Assembly: GCA_027449025.1 (NCBI GenBank)
Contig: DAIDMK010000006.1
Location: forward strand, 27,950 to 91,949
From: Lutibacter sp.
GTDB lineage: Bacteria > Bacteroidota > Bacteroidia > Flavobacteriales > Flavobacteriaceae
DNA: 64,000 bases
Direction of reading: 5' to 3'
Shown: piece by piece, positions 3,730 to 62,083 of the stretch
Position numbering within the stretch: the first letter of the stretch is position 1
Layout: each line of letters begins with the position of its first letter
Notes under the pieces: model-generated
What the model saw: the letters and a program-made list of their open reading frames with translations, nothing else
Databases searched by the model: none
Told to the model about the DNA's origin: nothing
Position numbers and translations under genes: made by a program

Positions 3730-3885
3730 TTAAACTTCAGCCTTAAAATTAGCATTATTTGATGTTGTCTGTTCTATTTTATTCGCATCACTTGTTAATC
3801 CACACCCTTTTTTGGAAGCCTTGCACGAACTAAACAATAGTATTGAAAACACAATTCCTAATGAATATAAAACTATTTTTTTCAT
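3730..3885 (-). CDS. Small putative lipoprotein (51 aa)
   Basis: MKKIVLYSLGIVFSILLFSSCKASKKG with lipobox; start placed at 3885 rather than 3930 because upstream codons fall in the repeated leader element. Confidence 0.7.
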   Translation of the reverse strand: MKKIVLYSLGIVFSILLFSSCKASKKGCGLTSDANKIEQTTSNNANFKAEV

Positions 3886-3972
3886 CTGCTTAAATTTTAT
3901 TTTTTGGTGGTAACAGCTGCTGATCGCCATTAATTATTCCTTTATGTATCAAAAATTTGTTATGCTCGTTTC
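3886..3972 (-). promoter_or_regulatory. Repeated 5' leader element, copy A
   Basis: GAAACGAGCATAACAAATTTTTGATACATAAAGGAATAATTAATGGCG...TGTTACCACCAAAAAATAAAATTTAAGCAG directly before ATG; shared with 55469-55567 and 61568-61672. Confidence 0.75.
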
Positions 3973-4023
3973 ATTTTCTGAACGACATTAATATTTTAAA
4001 AACGTTGTAATATAACAATTATT

Positions 4024-10971: not shown

Positions 10972-11024
10972 ATATCCCCAACCCCTACCTCGATAGGCAG
11001 GTAAACTTTCTGAAGGAAAGGGAG
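10972..11024. repeat. REP-like intergenic repeat, copy 1
   Basis: ATATCCCCAACCCCTACCTCGATAGGCAGGTAAACTTTCTGAAGGAAAGGGAGTTT; resembles 30145-30192. Confidence 0.5.
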
Positions 11025-54462: not shown

Positions 54463-55287
54463 TTATGCGGTGATGATGGTTCCAAATTTTTTATTTTGAA
54501 AAAGAGCTGAAATTTGCTCTGGTACAGTTCCATTGATAATTCTTGCCAGTTTAGCTCCTTTTTCTAAGGCAATTTCACAAGAATCTATTTTAGGGATCAT
54601 TCCGCCCTGAATACATTTTATTTCTTTTAGGTGATTTATTTCTGATACTTTAAGTTCATAAATCATGGAAGCAGGATTGTTTTTATCAAGCCTTAATCCA
54701 TCAACATCTGTTAAAATAATAAATTGTTCTGCAGAAAGTGCACCAGCGATATGGCCTGCAAATAAATCCCCGTTAATATTGTAATCGTTGCCATTTTTAT
54801 CAGATGCAATGCAAGTGATTACCGGAATAAAATCATTTTCCAATAACAATTCAATTAAGGAAGTGTCAACGCTTGCTACATCGCCAACTTGTCCTAAATC
54901 CACCATTTCTGTTTTTCCGTTTTTTGTATGTGGATGCAAACGTTTTTTGGCAATTACTGTTTGTCCGTCCTTGCCTGATAATCCAACTGCTTTATATCCC
55001 ATCTCACTAATTGTGGAAATTAAACTGCCATTTACTTTTCCTTTTAGTGCCATTTCTACATATTCCATGGCTTCTGGGCTTGTTTTTCGTTGCCCATCAA
55101 TAAACTCAGAATCTATATTCACTTCTTCCAAAGTTTGCTTGATAAAAGGACCGCCTCCATGAACAATGACCACTTGGTATCCCTTTTCTTTTAAATCGCA
55201 GATATTTTTTAGCACTTGTTTTTTAAGTGGCTGATTGGTCATGGCATTTCCTCCATATTTAAATAAGATTAGGTGTTTTTTTGTCAT
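54463..55287 (-). CDS. argB: Acetylglutamate kinase
   Basis: LFKYGGNAM, VIVHGGGPFIKQTLEEVNI, YNINGDLFAGHIAGAL, ILTDVDGLRLD. Confidence 0.95.
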   Translation of the reverse strand: MTKKHLILFKYGGNAMTNQPLKKQVLKNICDLKEKGYQVVIVHGGGPFIKQTLEEVNIDSEFIDGQRKTSPEAMEYVEMALKGKVNGSLISTISEMGYKAVGLSGKDGQTVIAKKRLHPHTKNGKTEMVDLGQVGDVASVDTSLIELLLENDFIPVITCIASDKNGNDYNINGDLFAGHIAGALSAEQFIILTDVDGLRLDKNNPASMIYELKVSEINHLKEIKCIQGGMIPKIDSCEIALEKGAKLARIINGTVPEQISALFQNKKFGTIITA

Positions 55288-55468
55288 TATATTTTTATTT
55301 ATAATTTATAGAACATACCCATAAAAATTTATTTAGGAGCAGTAATAGGCATTGGATTGCAATTTTTGATTTTTTTGTAAACCTTAAAAGTCTTGAAAGA
55401 TTTGGATTTGCAACCTCGATATGAAATCAGGATTATAACTGATTGTGAATGATTATGAGTGATTTGAT

Positions 55469-55567
55469 CTGTTTAAACTATATTTTTTAGCGGTAACAGA
55501 TGCTGCCTTCCTACCGACGGATACGGCATTAATCATCCGTTGTGTCAAAATTTGTAACACTCGTTTC
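55469..55567 (-). promoter_or_regulatory. Repeated 5' leader element, copy B (no adjacent ATG)
   Basis: GAAACGAGTGTTACAAATTTTGACACAACGGATGATTAATGCCG...CTGTTACCGCTAAAAAATATAGTTTAAACAG then ATC; homologous to 3886-3972 and 61568-61672. Confidence 0.7.
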
Positions 55568-60222: not shown

Positions 60223-61566
60223 ATGTCTTTAACCAATTTAAATGCCATTTCACCAATTGACGGCAGATACCGGAACAAAGTTGAACCTTTAGCACTATTT
60301 TTTTCAGAAGAAGCGCTTATCAAATACCGCGTAAAAGTAGAAGTTGAGTATTTTATTGCTTTATGTGAAATTCCACTTCCGCAATTGGCGGATTTTAAGG
60401 CTCAATTCTTTAAGGAATTAAGAAAAATCTATATCGATTTCTCTGCGGAAGATGCACAGAAAATTAAAGACATCGAGAAAATTACCAATCACGATGTTAA
60501 AGCCGTTGAGTATTTTATCAAAGAAAAATTTGACGGATTACAGCTTCAAAAATATAAAGAGTTTATTCACTTCGGATTAACATCTCAAGATATCAACAAC
60601 ACCGCAATTCCATTATCTTTAAAAGATGCGTTTGAGGCAGTTTATTATCCGGAATTGAAATTGCTTTTAGACAAACTGAATCAATTGGCAACCGATTGGG
60701 CAGAAATACCAATGTTGGCAAGAACACACGGACAGCCGGCATCGCCTACCAGATTAGGTAAGGAAATCTCAGTTTTTGTTGAACGTATTGCGCAACAACA
60801 AAAACCATTGAAAAACATTCCTTATGCCGCAAAATTTGGTGGAGCTACGGGGAATTTTAATGCGCATAAAGTGGCTTTTCCTACAACAGACTGGAAAGCT
60901 TTCGGAACGCATTTTGTAAAAAATGTTCTGGGATTACACCATTCTTTTCCAACCACGCAAATTGAACATTACGATCATTTGGCGGGTATTTTTGATGCCT
61001 TAAAACGTATTAACACGATAATCATTGATTTCGACAGAGACATTTGGACCTATGTTTCTATGGATTATTTTAAACAAAAAATTAAAGAAGGTGAAGTGGG
61101 TTCCTCAGCGATGCCACACAAAGTAAATCCGATTGATTTTGAAAATTCTGAAGGGAATTTAGGCATCGCCAATGCGCTTTTCGAACATTTATCGGCAAAA
61201 TTACCGTTATCCAGATTGCAACGTGATTTAACCGACTCAACGGTTTTAAGAAATATTGGCGTTCCCTTTGCCCACACAATTATTGCCTTTAACTCAACGT
61301 TAAAAGGATTGAACAAATTAATCATTAATCAAGCTAAATTTGCGGAAGATTTGGAGAATAATTGGGCGGTGGTTGCTGAAGCCATTCAAACAATTTTGCG
61401 AAGGGAAGCCTATCCGAATCCGTATGAAGCATTAAAGGAACTGACAAGAACCAACGAAAAAATCACTCAAAAATCAATGGCTGATTTTATTGATGGTTTA
61501 GCTGTTTCTGACATCATTAAAAAAGAATTAAAAACCATTACACCAAGTAATTATACTGGAATATAA
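60223..61566 (+). CDS. purB: Adenylosuccinate lyase
   Basis: ISPIDGRYRNKVEPLALFFSEEALIKYRVKVEVEYF, GEVGSSAMPHKVNPIDFENSEGNLGIAN. Confidence 0.97.
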   Translation: MSLTNLNAISPIDGRYRNKVEPLALFFSEEALIKYRVKVEVEYFIALCEIPLPQLADFKAQFFKELRKIYIDFSAEDAQKIKDIEKITNHDVKAVEYFIKEKFDGLQLQKYKEFIHFGLTSQDINNTAIPLSLKDAFEAVYYPELKLLLDKLNQLATDWAEIPMLARTHGQPASPTRLGKEISVFVERIAQQQKPLKNIPYAAKFGGATGNFNAHKVAFPTTDWKAFGTHFVKNVLGLHHSFPTTQIEHYDHLAGIFDALKRINTIIIDFDRDIWTYVSMDYFKQKIKEGEVGSSAMPHKVNPIDFENSEGNLGIANALFEHLSAKLPLSRLQRDLTDSTVLRNIGVPFAHTIIAFNSTLKGLNKLIINQAKFAEDLENNWAVVAEAIQTILRREAYPNPYEALKELTRTNEKITQKSMADFIDGLAVSDIIKKELKTITPSNYTGI

Positions 61567-61567
61567 T

Positions 61568-61672
61568 GAAACGAGCATAACAAATTTTGATTCACAAAGG
61601 AATGATTAATGGCGAACCTGCTACTGGCGGGTAGATAGGAACCGTTACCACTAAAAAATAAAGTTTAAACAA
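61568..61672 (+). promoter_or_regulatory. Repeated 5' leader element, copy C
   Basis: GAAACGAGCATAACAAATTTTGATTCACAAAGGAATGATTAATGGCG...CCGTTACCACTAAAAAATAAAGTTTAAACAA directly before ATG 61673. Confidence 0.75.
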
Positions 61673-62083
61673 ATGAAAAAATTTATATTGTTGCTTGTAT
61701 TACTAGTAGGGCTATTTTCATGTAAAGATAAAAATGCGGCGCCAAATTCAGATACTTTTAAATTGGGAAAAGATATAGATGCCGAGCGATTTAAATCTGG
61801 AATATTTGAAATCCCTGCCAGTCAAGGATATGAAAAAACCATTATCATAAGGCAAGATTCTATCCAAATTGAAAAATATGAAGACAGGATTGACACGCTT
61901 TCCATTGCCTGGAAAAACAATTTTAATTACACCCTTAAAATGTTGCATCCAAAAACCGCCATTGATGAAGATCCAATTCATATAAAAATCACCGACATCA
62001 AAGAAAATTCTTATAAATTTGAAGCAGTGATTGGACATTCTAACTATGTCCAAAAAGGCGAAATTACAAAAACACATAACTAA
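61673..62083 (+). CDS. Hypothetical lipoprotein (136 aa)
   Basis: MKKFILLLVLLVGLFSCKDKN lipobox. Confidence 0.75.
   Translation: MKKFILLLVLLVGLFSCKDKNAAPNSDTFKLGKDIDAERFKSGIFEIPASQGYEKTIIIRQDSIQIEKYEDRIDTLSIAWKNNFNYTLKMLHPKTAIDEDPIHIKITDIKENSYKFEAVIGHSNYVQKGEITKTHN

Follow-up and report, generated by a model that had tools for sequence, protein, structure and literature searches.

A short mobile element family of Flavobacteriaceae that probably targets start codons

Three copies in the window

Why would intergenic sequences with common flanks and different cores stop exactly at the start codon of a gene? The question arises around position 61,568 of the 64,000-nucleotide stretch of Lutibacter sp. 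DNA analyzed here (the window), where the original prediction, made from the letters alone, described a three-copy leader ending at lipoprotein start codons and suggested a structured RNA or a mobile leader. The three copies and their common blocks are where that prediction placed them, and the 21-nt left block matches the window three times at 0 mismatches (0.08 expected). Copies A and C end, as described, at the ATG of lipoprotein-like genes. The homology extends further than was proposed, however, since it also takes in ATGAA at both ends, and the corrected inserted units are 61571-61677(+) for copy C, 3881-3969(-) for copy A, and 55464-55564(-) for copy B.

Copy C is a 107-nt unit (R1 match, 81.3 bits) that is exactly what the empty orthologous sites of readable relatives lack. 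Its left ATGAA (61566-61570, forward strand) is the ancestral target, and the first base of this motif completes the TAA stop codon of the upstream gene in a TAATGA overlap. The right ATGAA of the unit (61673-61677, forward strand) is the start codon of a 136-amino-acid lipoprotein-like open reading frame (ORF) at 61673-62083. The core is longer than in 88-nt units because it holds one degenerate nested 20-nt palindrome (the CCTGCTACTGGCGGGTAGATAGG region, approximately 61617-61642, forward strand), located by comparing units of 88, 107, and 128 nt. On the reverse strand, the 89-nt unit of copy A lies between a left ATGAA at 3970-3974 and a right ATGAA at 3881-3885, the latter being the start of a 51-amino-acid lipoprotein-like ORF. 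Copy B is a degenerate 101-nt unit, also on the reverse strand and with a nested palindrome; both ends are mutated, the left to TTGAA and the right to ATCAA, and some 180 nt separate it from a downstream gene whose start is at 55287(-). Placement at a start codon holds for copies A and C and fails for copy B.

Copy number and distribution

The element is far more abundant than a three-copy leader, with 135 matches at an E value of ≤0.01 in the 3.34-Mb Lutibacter genome. These fall into 102 clusters, 22 of which are head-to-tail arrays of 2 to 5 units spaced 87 to 89 nt apart. The genes downstream of the genome copies show no lipoprotein bias, and that part of the prediction is dropped. Among 58 relatives, 33 carry the element, many with 50 to 100 copies. 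Under strict filters, related copies occur in at least 69 of 250 Flavobacteriaceae genomes and at least 67 of 237 genera; these counts are lower bounds, as the survey scored at most 17 candidates per genome. Nearly all copies examined in other genera are at start codons, and blastn against phage and plasmid records returned no element match. Two further families of like design, ATGAAACGCCT... with CATTTG:CAAATG and ATGAATGAGC... with CATATG:CATATG, are found mixed into arrays of the first family (L418-L430; L079; L066).

Boundaries, target, and empty sites

The inserted unit, (A/C/T)CGAGC...AAACAGATGAA, measures about 88 nt and lies directly 3' of a pre-existing ATGAA, with the result that ATGAA stands at both junctions. 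We place its first base at the A/C/T after the left ATGAA because in array copies that base varies with the unit. An A follows the right-hand ATGAA in 93% of cases, and the target therefore reads ATGAA^A. No terminal inverted repeats are present, as the left end ACGAGCATAAC does not match the reverse complement of the right end, TTCATCTGTTTA.

Precise empty sites and differences in presence or absence were observed at two orthologous loci, each compared across about 30 genomes. The 107-nt unit at the window lipoprotein locus is present in this genome only, and readable relatives have empty sites such as ...GGAATATAATGAAAAAA. At the coaD locus, the site is filled in 8 and empty in most of the 30 loci; the filled species carry a single unit or several, or a unit with a second-family unit behind it, and close relatives have no unit between the same flanks. 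(The coaD probe beyond its first 22 residues was our own sequence and served only as a search probe.) At both loci the stop codon of the upstream gene shares bases with the start codon or abuts it (TAATG, ATGA), and retention of ATGAA at the left junction leaves this stop codon intact after insertion. Exact empty sites in relatives mean that the element moves: it is a mobile, precisely inserted sequence with an ATGAA^A target that also forms arrays. The "mobile leader" of the original prediction is thus borne out by the precise empty sites, the tandem arrays, and the high copy number.

Bias toward start codons

Among the 93 array-terminal copies of this genome, 75 start an ORF of at least 45 amino acids at their right-hand ATG. 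The remainder are interrupted by contig ends or Ns, are followed by a unit of another family, have a mutated start, or are intergenic; two of the intergenic copies lie just before hairpins that, judged by sequence, resemble terminators. In one mutated case (L092 1501-1592; G000:C29:4836-4927), the right end reads TTGAA before a YaaA-like ORF, and TTG appears to have replaced ATG as the start of this gene once the unit was in place.

Setting aside copies that are cut or have another unit next leaves 87 evaluable copies, with the right-hand ATG serving as the start codon in 75 and lying elsewhere in 12, start calls here resting on ORFs. As background we used the ATGAAA sites in 0.85 Mb comprising the window and Lutibacter loci, where 143 are at ORF starts, 210 are in other noncoding positions, and 1,417 are coding. 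Relative to this background, the element is strongly enriched at starts over other noncoding sites (75:12 versus 143:210; odds ratio, 9.2; p=4e-15). Selection could make part of this bias; insertions elsewhere may be more harmful. The upstream base profile of the insertion sites is close to that of natural starts, being A-rich around positions -10 to -12, and is unlike that of other intergenic ATGAAA sites. Flavobacterium johnsoniae lacks Shine-Dalgarno sequences, and its translation initiation is promoted by adenines at -3, -6, -12, and -13 (PMC6847099), which makes it plausible that the A-rich right end acts as a portable start context.

Core palindromes and a helix that includes the start codon

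Unit lengths, with the left ATGAA included, cluster near 93, 103 to 114, and 133 nt, and the core holds 0, 1, 2, or 3 nested 20-nt palindromes (CCTGCCTACCGGCAGGCAGG, TTTACCTGCCGATAGGCAGG), which account for the added length and share a single insertion point, with GCGAA on one side and CAGC on the other. The hairpins that were predicted for the variable cores are remnants of this second, nested palindromic repeat, which explains why they differ among the three window copies. One CCTACCTCGATAGGCAGG palindrome stands by itself in the window, at 10984-11001 between two genes, and is a free-standing member of the same REP-like family that is nested in cores.

The element was rightly called structured, though its conserved structure is not in the core hairpins. 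It is a helix in which CATNTG of the core pairs with CAN'ATG of the right end, the start codon included. In an alignment of 67 copies from many genera, no column pair covaries more strongly than N:N' (MI with APC), and over all loci this pair reads CG in 131 copies, GC in 22, TA in 3, and AT in 1, with 5 mismatched. The six-pair helix is 98.9% paired in 30 diverse copies, its covariation score is reached by 0 of 500 shuffles, and sliding the helix along the alignment yields scores of 0.03 or less. RNAalifold, unaided, recovers this helix and no other. Three of the outer pairs are dictated by ATG and the bases complementary to it and only the central pair varies freely, so that the covariation is that of N:N' alone and comes from a restricted set of lineages. 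C:G is present in more than one subfamily and so is G:C (L302 and L346 depart from the types nearest to them); the second family has T:A, the third has A:T, and this spread requires more than one compensatory change. Had a search shown no further copies and no covariation, the original prediction would have been refuted; both are found. A left helix (GC...GC, AAY...RTT) is 63.9% paired and has partial support, and the right segment of the unit is an A-rich loop. A helix over the start codon might lower translation rather than stay neutral, and burying the AUG may possibly have a regulatory effect.

Alternative functions and the search for an enzyme

A cis-regulatory RNA leader, whether of a regulon or a riboswitch, would account for this helix as a mask over the start codon that opens on a signal. 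Such a leader is in keeping with an AUG enclosed in a helix conserved through compensatory changes, with the sense orientation of the copies, and with the element at the start of five lysine/diaminopimelate pathway genes of this genome (asd, lysC-like, dapD, dapA, and dapB at L098, L100, L101, L110, and L062). A diaminopimelate-pathway regulon is suggestive in this genome, yet we rejected it because the pattern does not recur in the other species and loci sampled. Overall, the genes behind the copies are unrelated (coaD, dapA, purN, lysC, and others). Pfam assigns unrelated functions to 20 downstream genes of this genome, among them DHDPS, DapB, Formyl_trans, an SPOUT methyltransferase, an adenosine deaminase, an epimerase, a response regulator, TetR, and FtsX, and the 149 distinct downstream protein starts at other loci are equally mixed. 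The same gene occurs with or without the element among close relatives, some copies have no gene behind them, and CAGCTG cores weaken the helix in many Lutibacter copies. Neither the window nor the elements at 11 diverged loci match an Rfam family, Flavo-1 included, at gathering score, and nothing meaningful appears around copy C at an E value of ≤5; the likeness to Flavo-1 and other Rfam families is limited to a flavobacterial intergenic origin. Given the unrelated downstream genes, sites that are empty in most relatives, and no Rfam match, we find no support for a cis-regulatory or standalone RNA as the main function and regard a regulatory leader as improbable. A small coding cassette, copied in front of genes and encoding the leader peptide MKRALQILIHKGMINGEQHLLPLKNKI, is more improbable still. 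Some Lutibacter arrays do keep a frame of 25 to 27 codons ending a few bases before the next ATG, but a major Lutibacter subfamily has an in-frame TAA at codon 5, frameshifted GCCATAAC variants occur, and other genera encode MKRAC* or MK*. Since TAA codons or indels interrupt the frames of most copies and no ORF is conserved, the cassette is rejected and the original judgment that the element is not coding stands.

How the element moves is a separate matter, and the most concrete version of this step has a Y1 (HUH) transposase move the unit as an element of the IS200/IS605 or REP type, with single-strand excision and insertion 3' of a short fixed target and internal guides pairing with the cleavage sites. 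The missing terminal inverted repeats, the insertion 3' of a fixed ATGAA resembling the right end, and a putative internal guide complementary to that end are all features that point this way, and guide-cleavage pairing has been described for IS200/IS605 (PMC6006769, PMC8266576). By analogy, this pairing would be the nearest known mechanism. Within Lutibacter, Y1 presence and copy number also go together, as Y1 genes are found in 13 of 14 high-copy versus 8 of 23 low-copy genomes (p=0.0006, uncorrected for kinship). Against this, the Y1 loci inspected (L234-L240, L390-L417) have no transposase between element ends and no element matches around them. The three RAYT-like Y1 genes (L238, L239, and L240) are each flanked by a palindrome of their own (GCGGATTTGCAATCCGTGCC, GCGAAGTCTCCCGACTTCGAAGC, and AACCTAACTGGTTTTCAAAACCTGTTAGGTT), no strong subterminal hairpins are evident in the element, and a Y1_Tnp match is absent from 32 of the 69 element-positive genomes and from 7 of the 20 that have at least four copies. 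By a hand count, the element and the L240 RAYT co-occur weakly (18 of 41 genomes element-positive versus 69 of 250 overall). Nor did nhmmer over 1.36 Mb of loci reveal an autonomous version with the same ends; all it returned were full units, fragments at contig ends, and copies that were truncated or had long cores. On balance we consider movement by a Y1 transposase rather unlikely. Separately, a Y1_Tnp-like match lies inside open frames of about 1,000 to 1,290 amino acids in several Lutibacter genomes (L237, L405, L407, L415, and L416), possibly a Y1 domain fused to a large protein.

Comparison with known elements

Non-autonomous elements derived from IS200/IS605 (PATE-like, relatives of IS608/ISDra2) are alike in having no terminal inverted repeats, a fixed 4- to 5-nt target on their 5' side, a similar right-end motif, and, probably, an internal guide complementary to an end. 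The element described here differs in that its target is in practice the start codon, its unit is 88 nt, an A-rich loop replaces the hairpin between guide and right end, and no transposase with its ends is found at the Y1 loci examined. REP elements and REPtrons (TnpA_REP; subclass 2.6, RAYT group 5 in Bacteroidetes) share its short length, high copy number, extragenic position, and probable movement in trans, and RAYT genes are present in element genomes too. A REP or REPtron is a 20- to 40-bp palindrome tagged GT[AG]G and clustered around a RAYT gene. The 88-nt unit, in contrast, is not a tagged palindrome, flanks no RAYT gene seen here, and is fixed in orientation and position at start codons. 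We do not file the element under IS200/IS605 or REP because the examined Y1 genes lack its ends and because some element-rich genomes lack Y1. MITEs of DDE transposons are likewise short and non-autonomous, with a possible counterpart to their target duplication in the 5-bp ATGAA, but the element has no terminal inverted repeats and its target is always the same.

Proposed mechanism and implications

We therefore favor, with good though not full confidence, a family of short non-autonomous mobile elements that target start codons and bring along their own translation-start context. In this scheme, a unit of about 88 nt inserts after ATGAA in ATGAA^A, overwhelmingly at start codons; the old ATGAA stays on the left, and the AAACAGATGAA right end of the unit becomes the new start of the gene. 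The A-rich right third, similar to natural starts in Flavobacteria, would supply the translation-start context, and insertion would be tolerated for this reason, while the restored target would allow head-to-tail arrays. Pairing of the internal guide CATNTG with the right end CAN'ATG may be needed to recognize the end or choose the target, in a reaction that would be directed by the guide, perhaps proceed on a single strand, and be carried out by an enzyme acting in trans. We tentatively extend this scheme, as a possibility only, to a guide whose anti-start-codon CAT, by pairing with CAN'ATG, makes the element land on start codons and replace the translation-start region of hundreds of genes, with an enzyme or route, perhaps RNA-based, outside the known transposase families.

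Short non-autonomous mobile repeats are a known kind of sequence; the part that appears new is start-codon targeting with an anti-start guide. We found no description of the element in the open-access papers searched, a set with most subscription journals and preprints outside its scope, and a choice of start codons as target appears to be undescribed. Many mobile elements limit harm by using tRNA genes, terminators, or other safe sites, and the start codon as a safe harbor, with the start context brought along, would be a new target strategy. The element would also amount to a natural experiment: in very many genes of one bacterial family, a single sequence would stand in place of the original 5' leader, and this group initiates translation with no Shine-Dalgarno pairing. 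Annotation is affected through right-hand ATG starts and spurious short ORFs, and the system may offer precise DNA insertion at gene starts.

Two minor observations concern other sequences. At locus L307 of a relative, positions 267-303 match the Rfam DUF805b RNA at 36.9 bits, away from the element. In the window, positions 1-105 and 268-372 are two 105-nt direct repeats that are 89% identical and spaced 267 nt apart.
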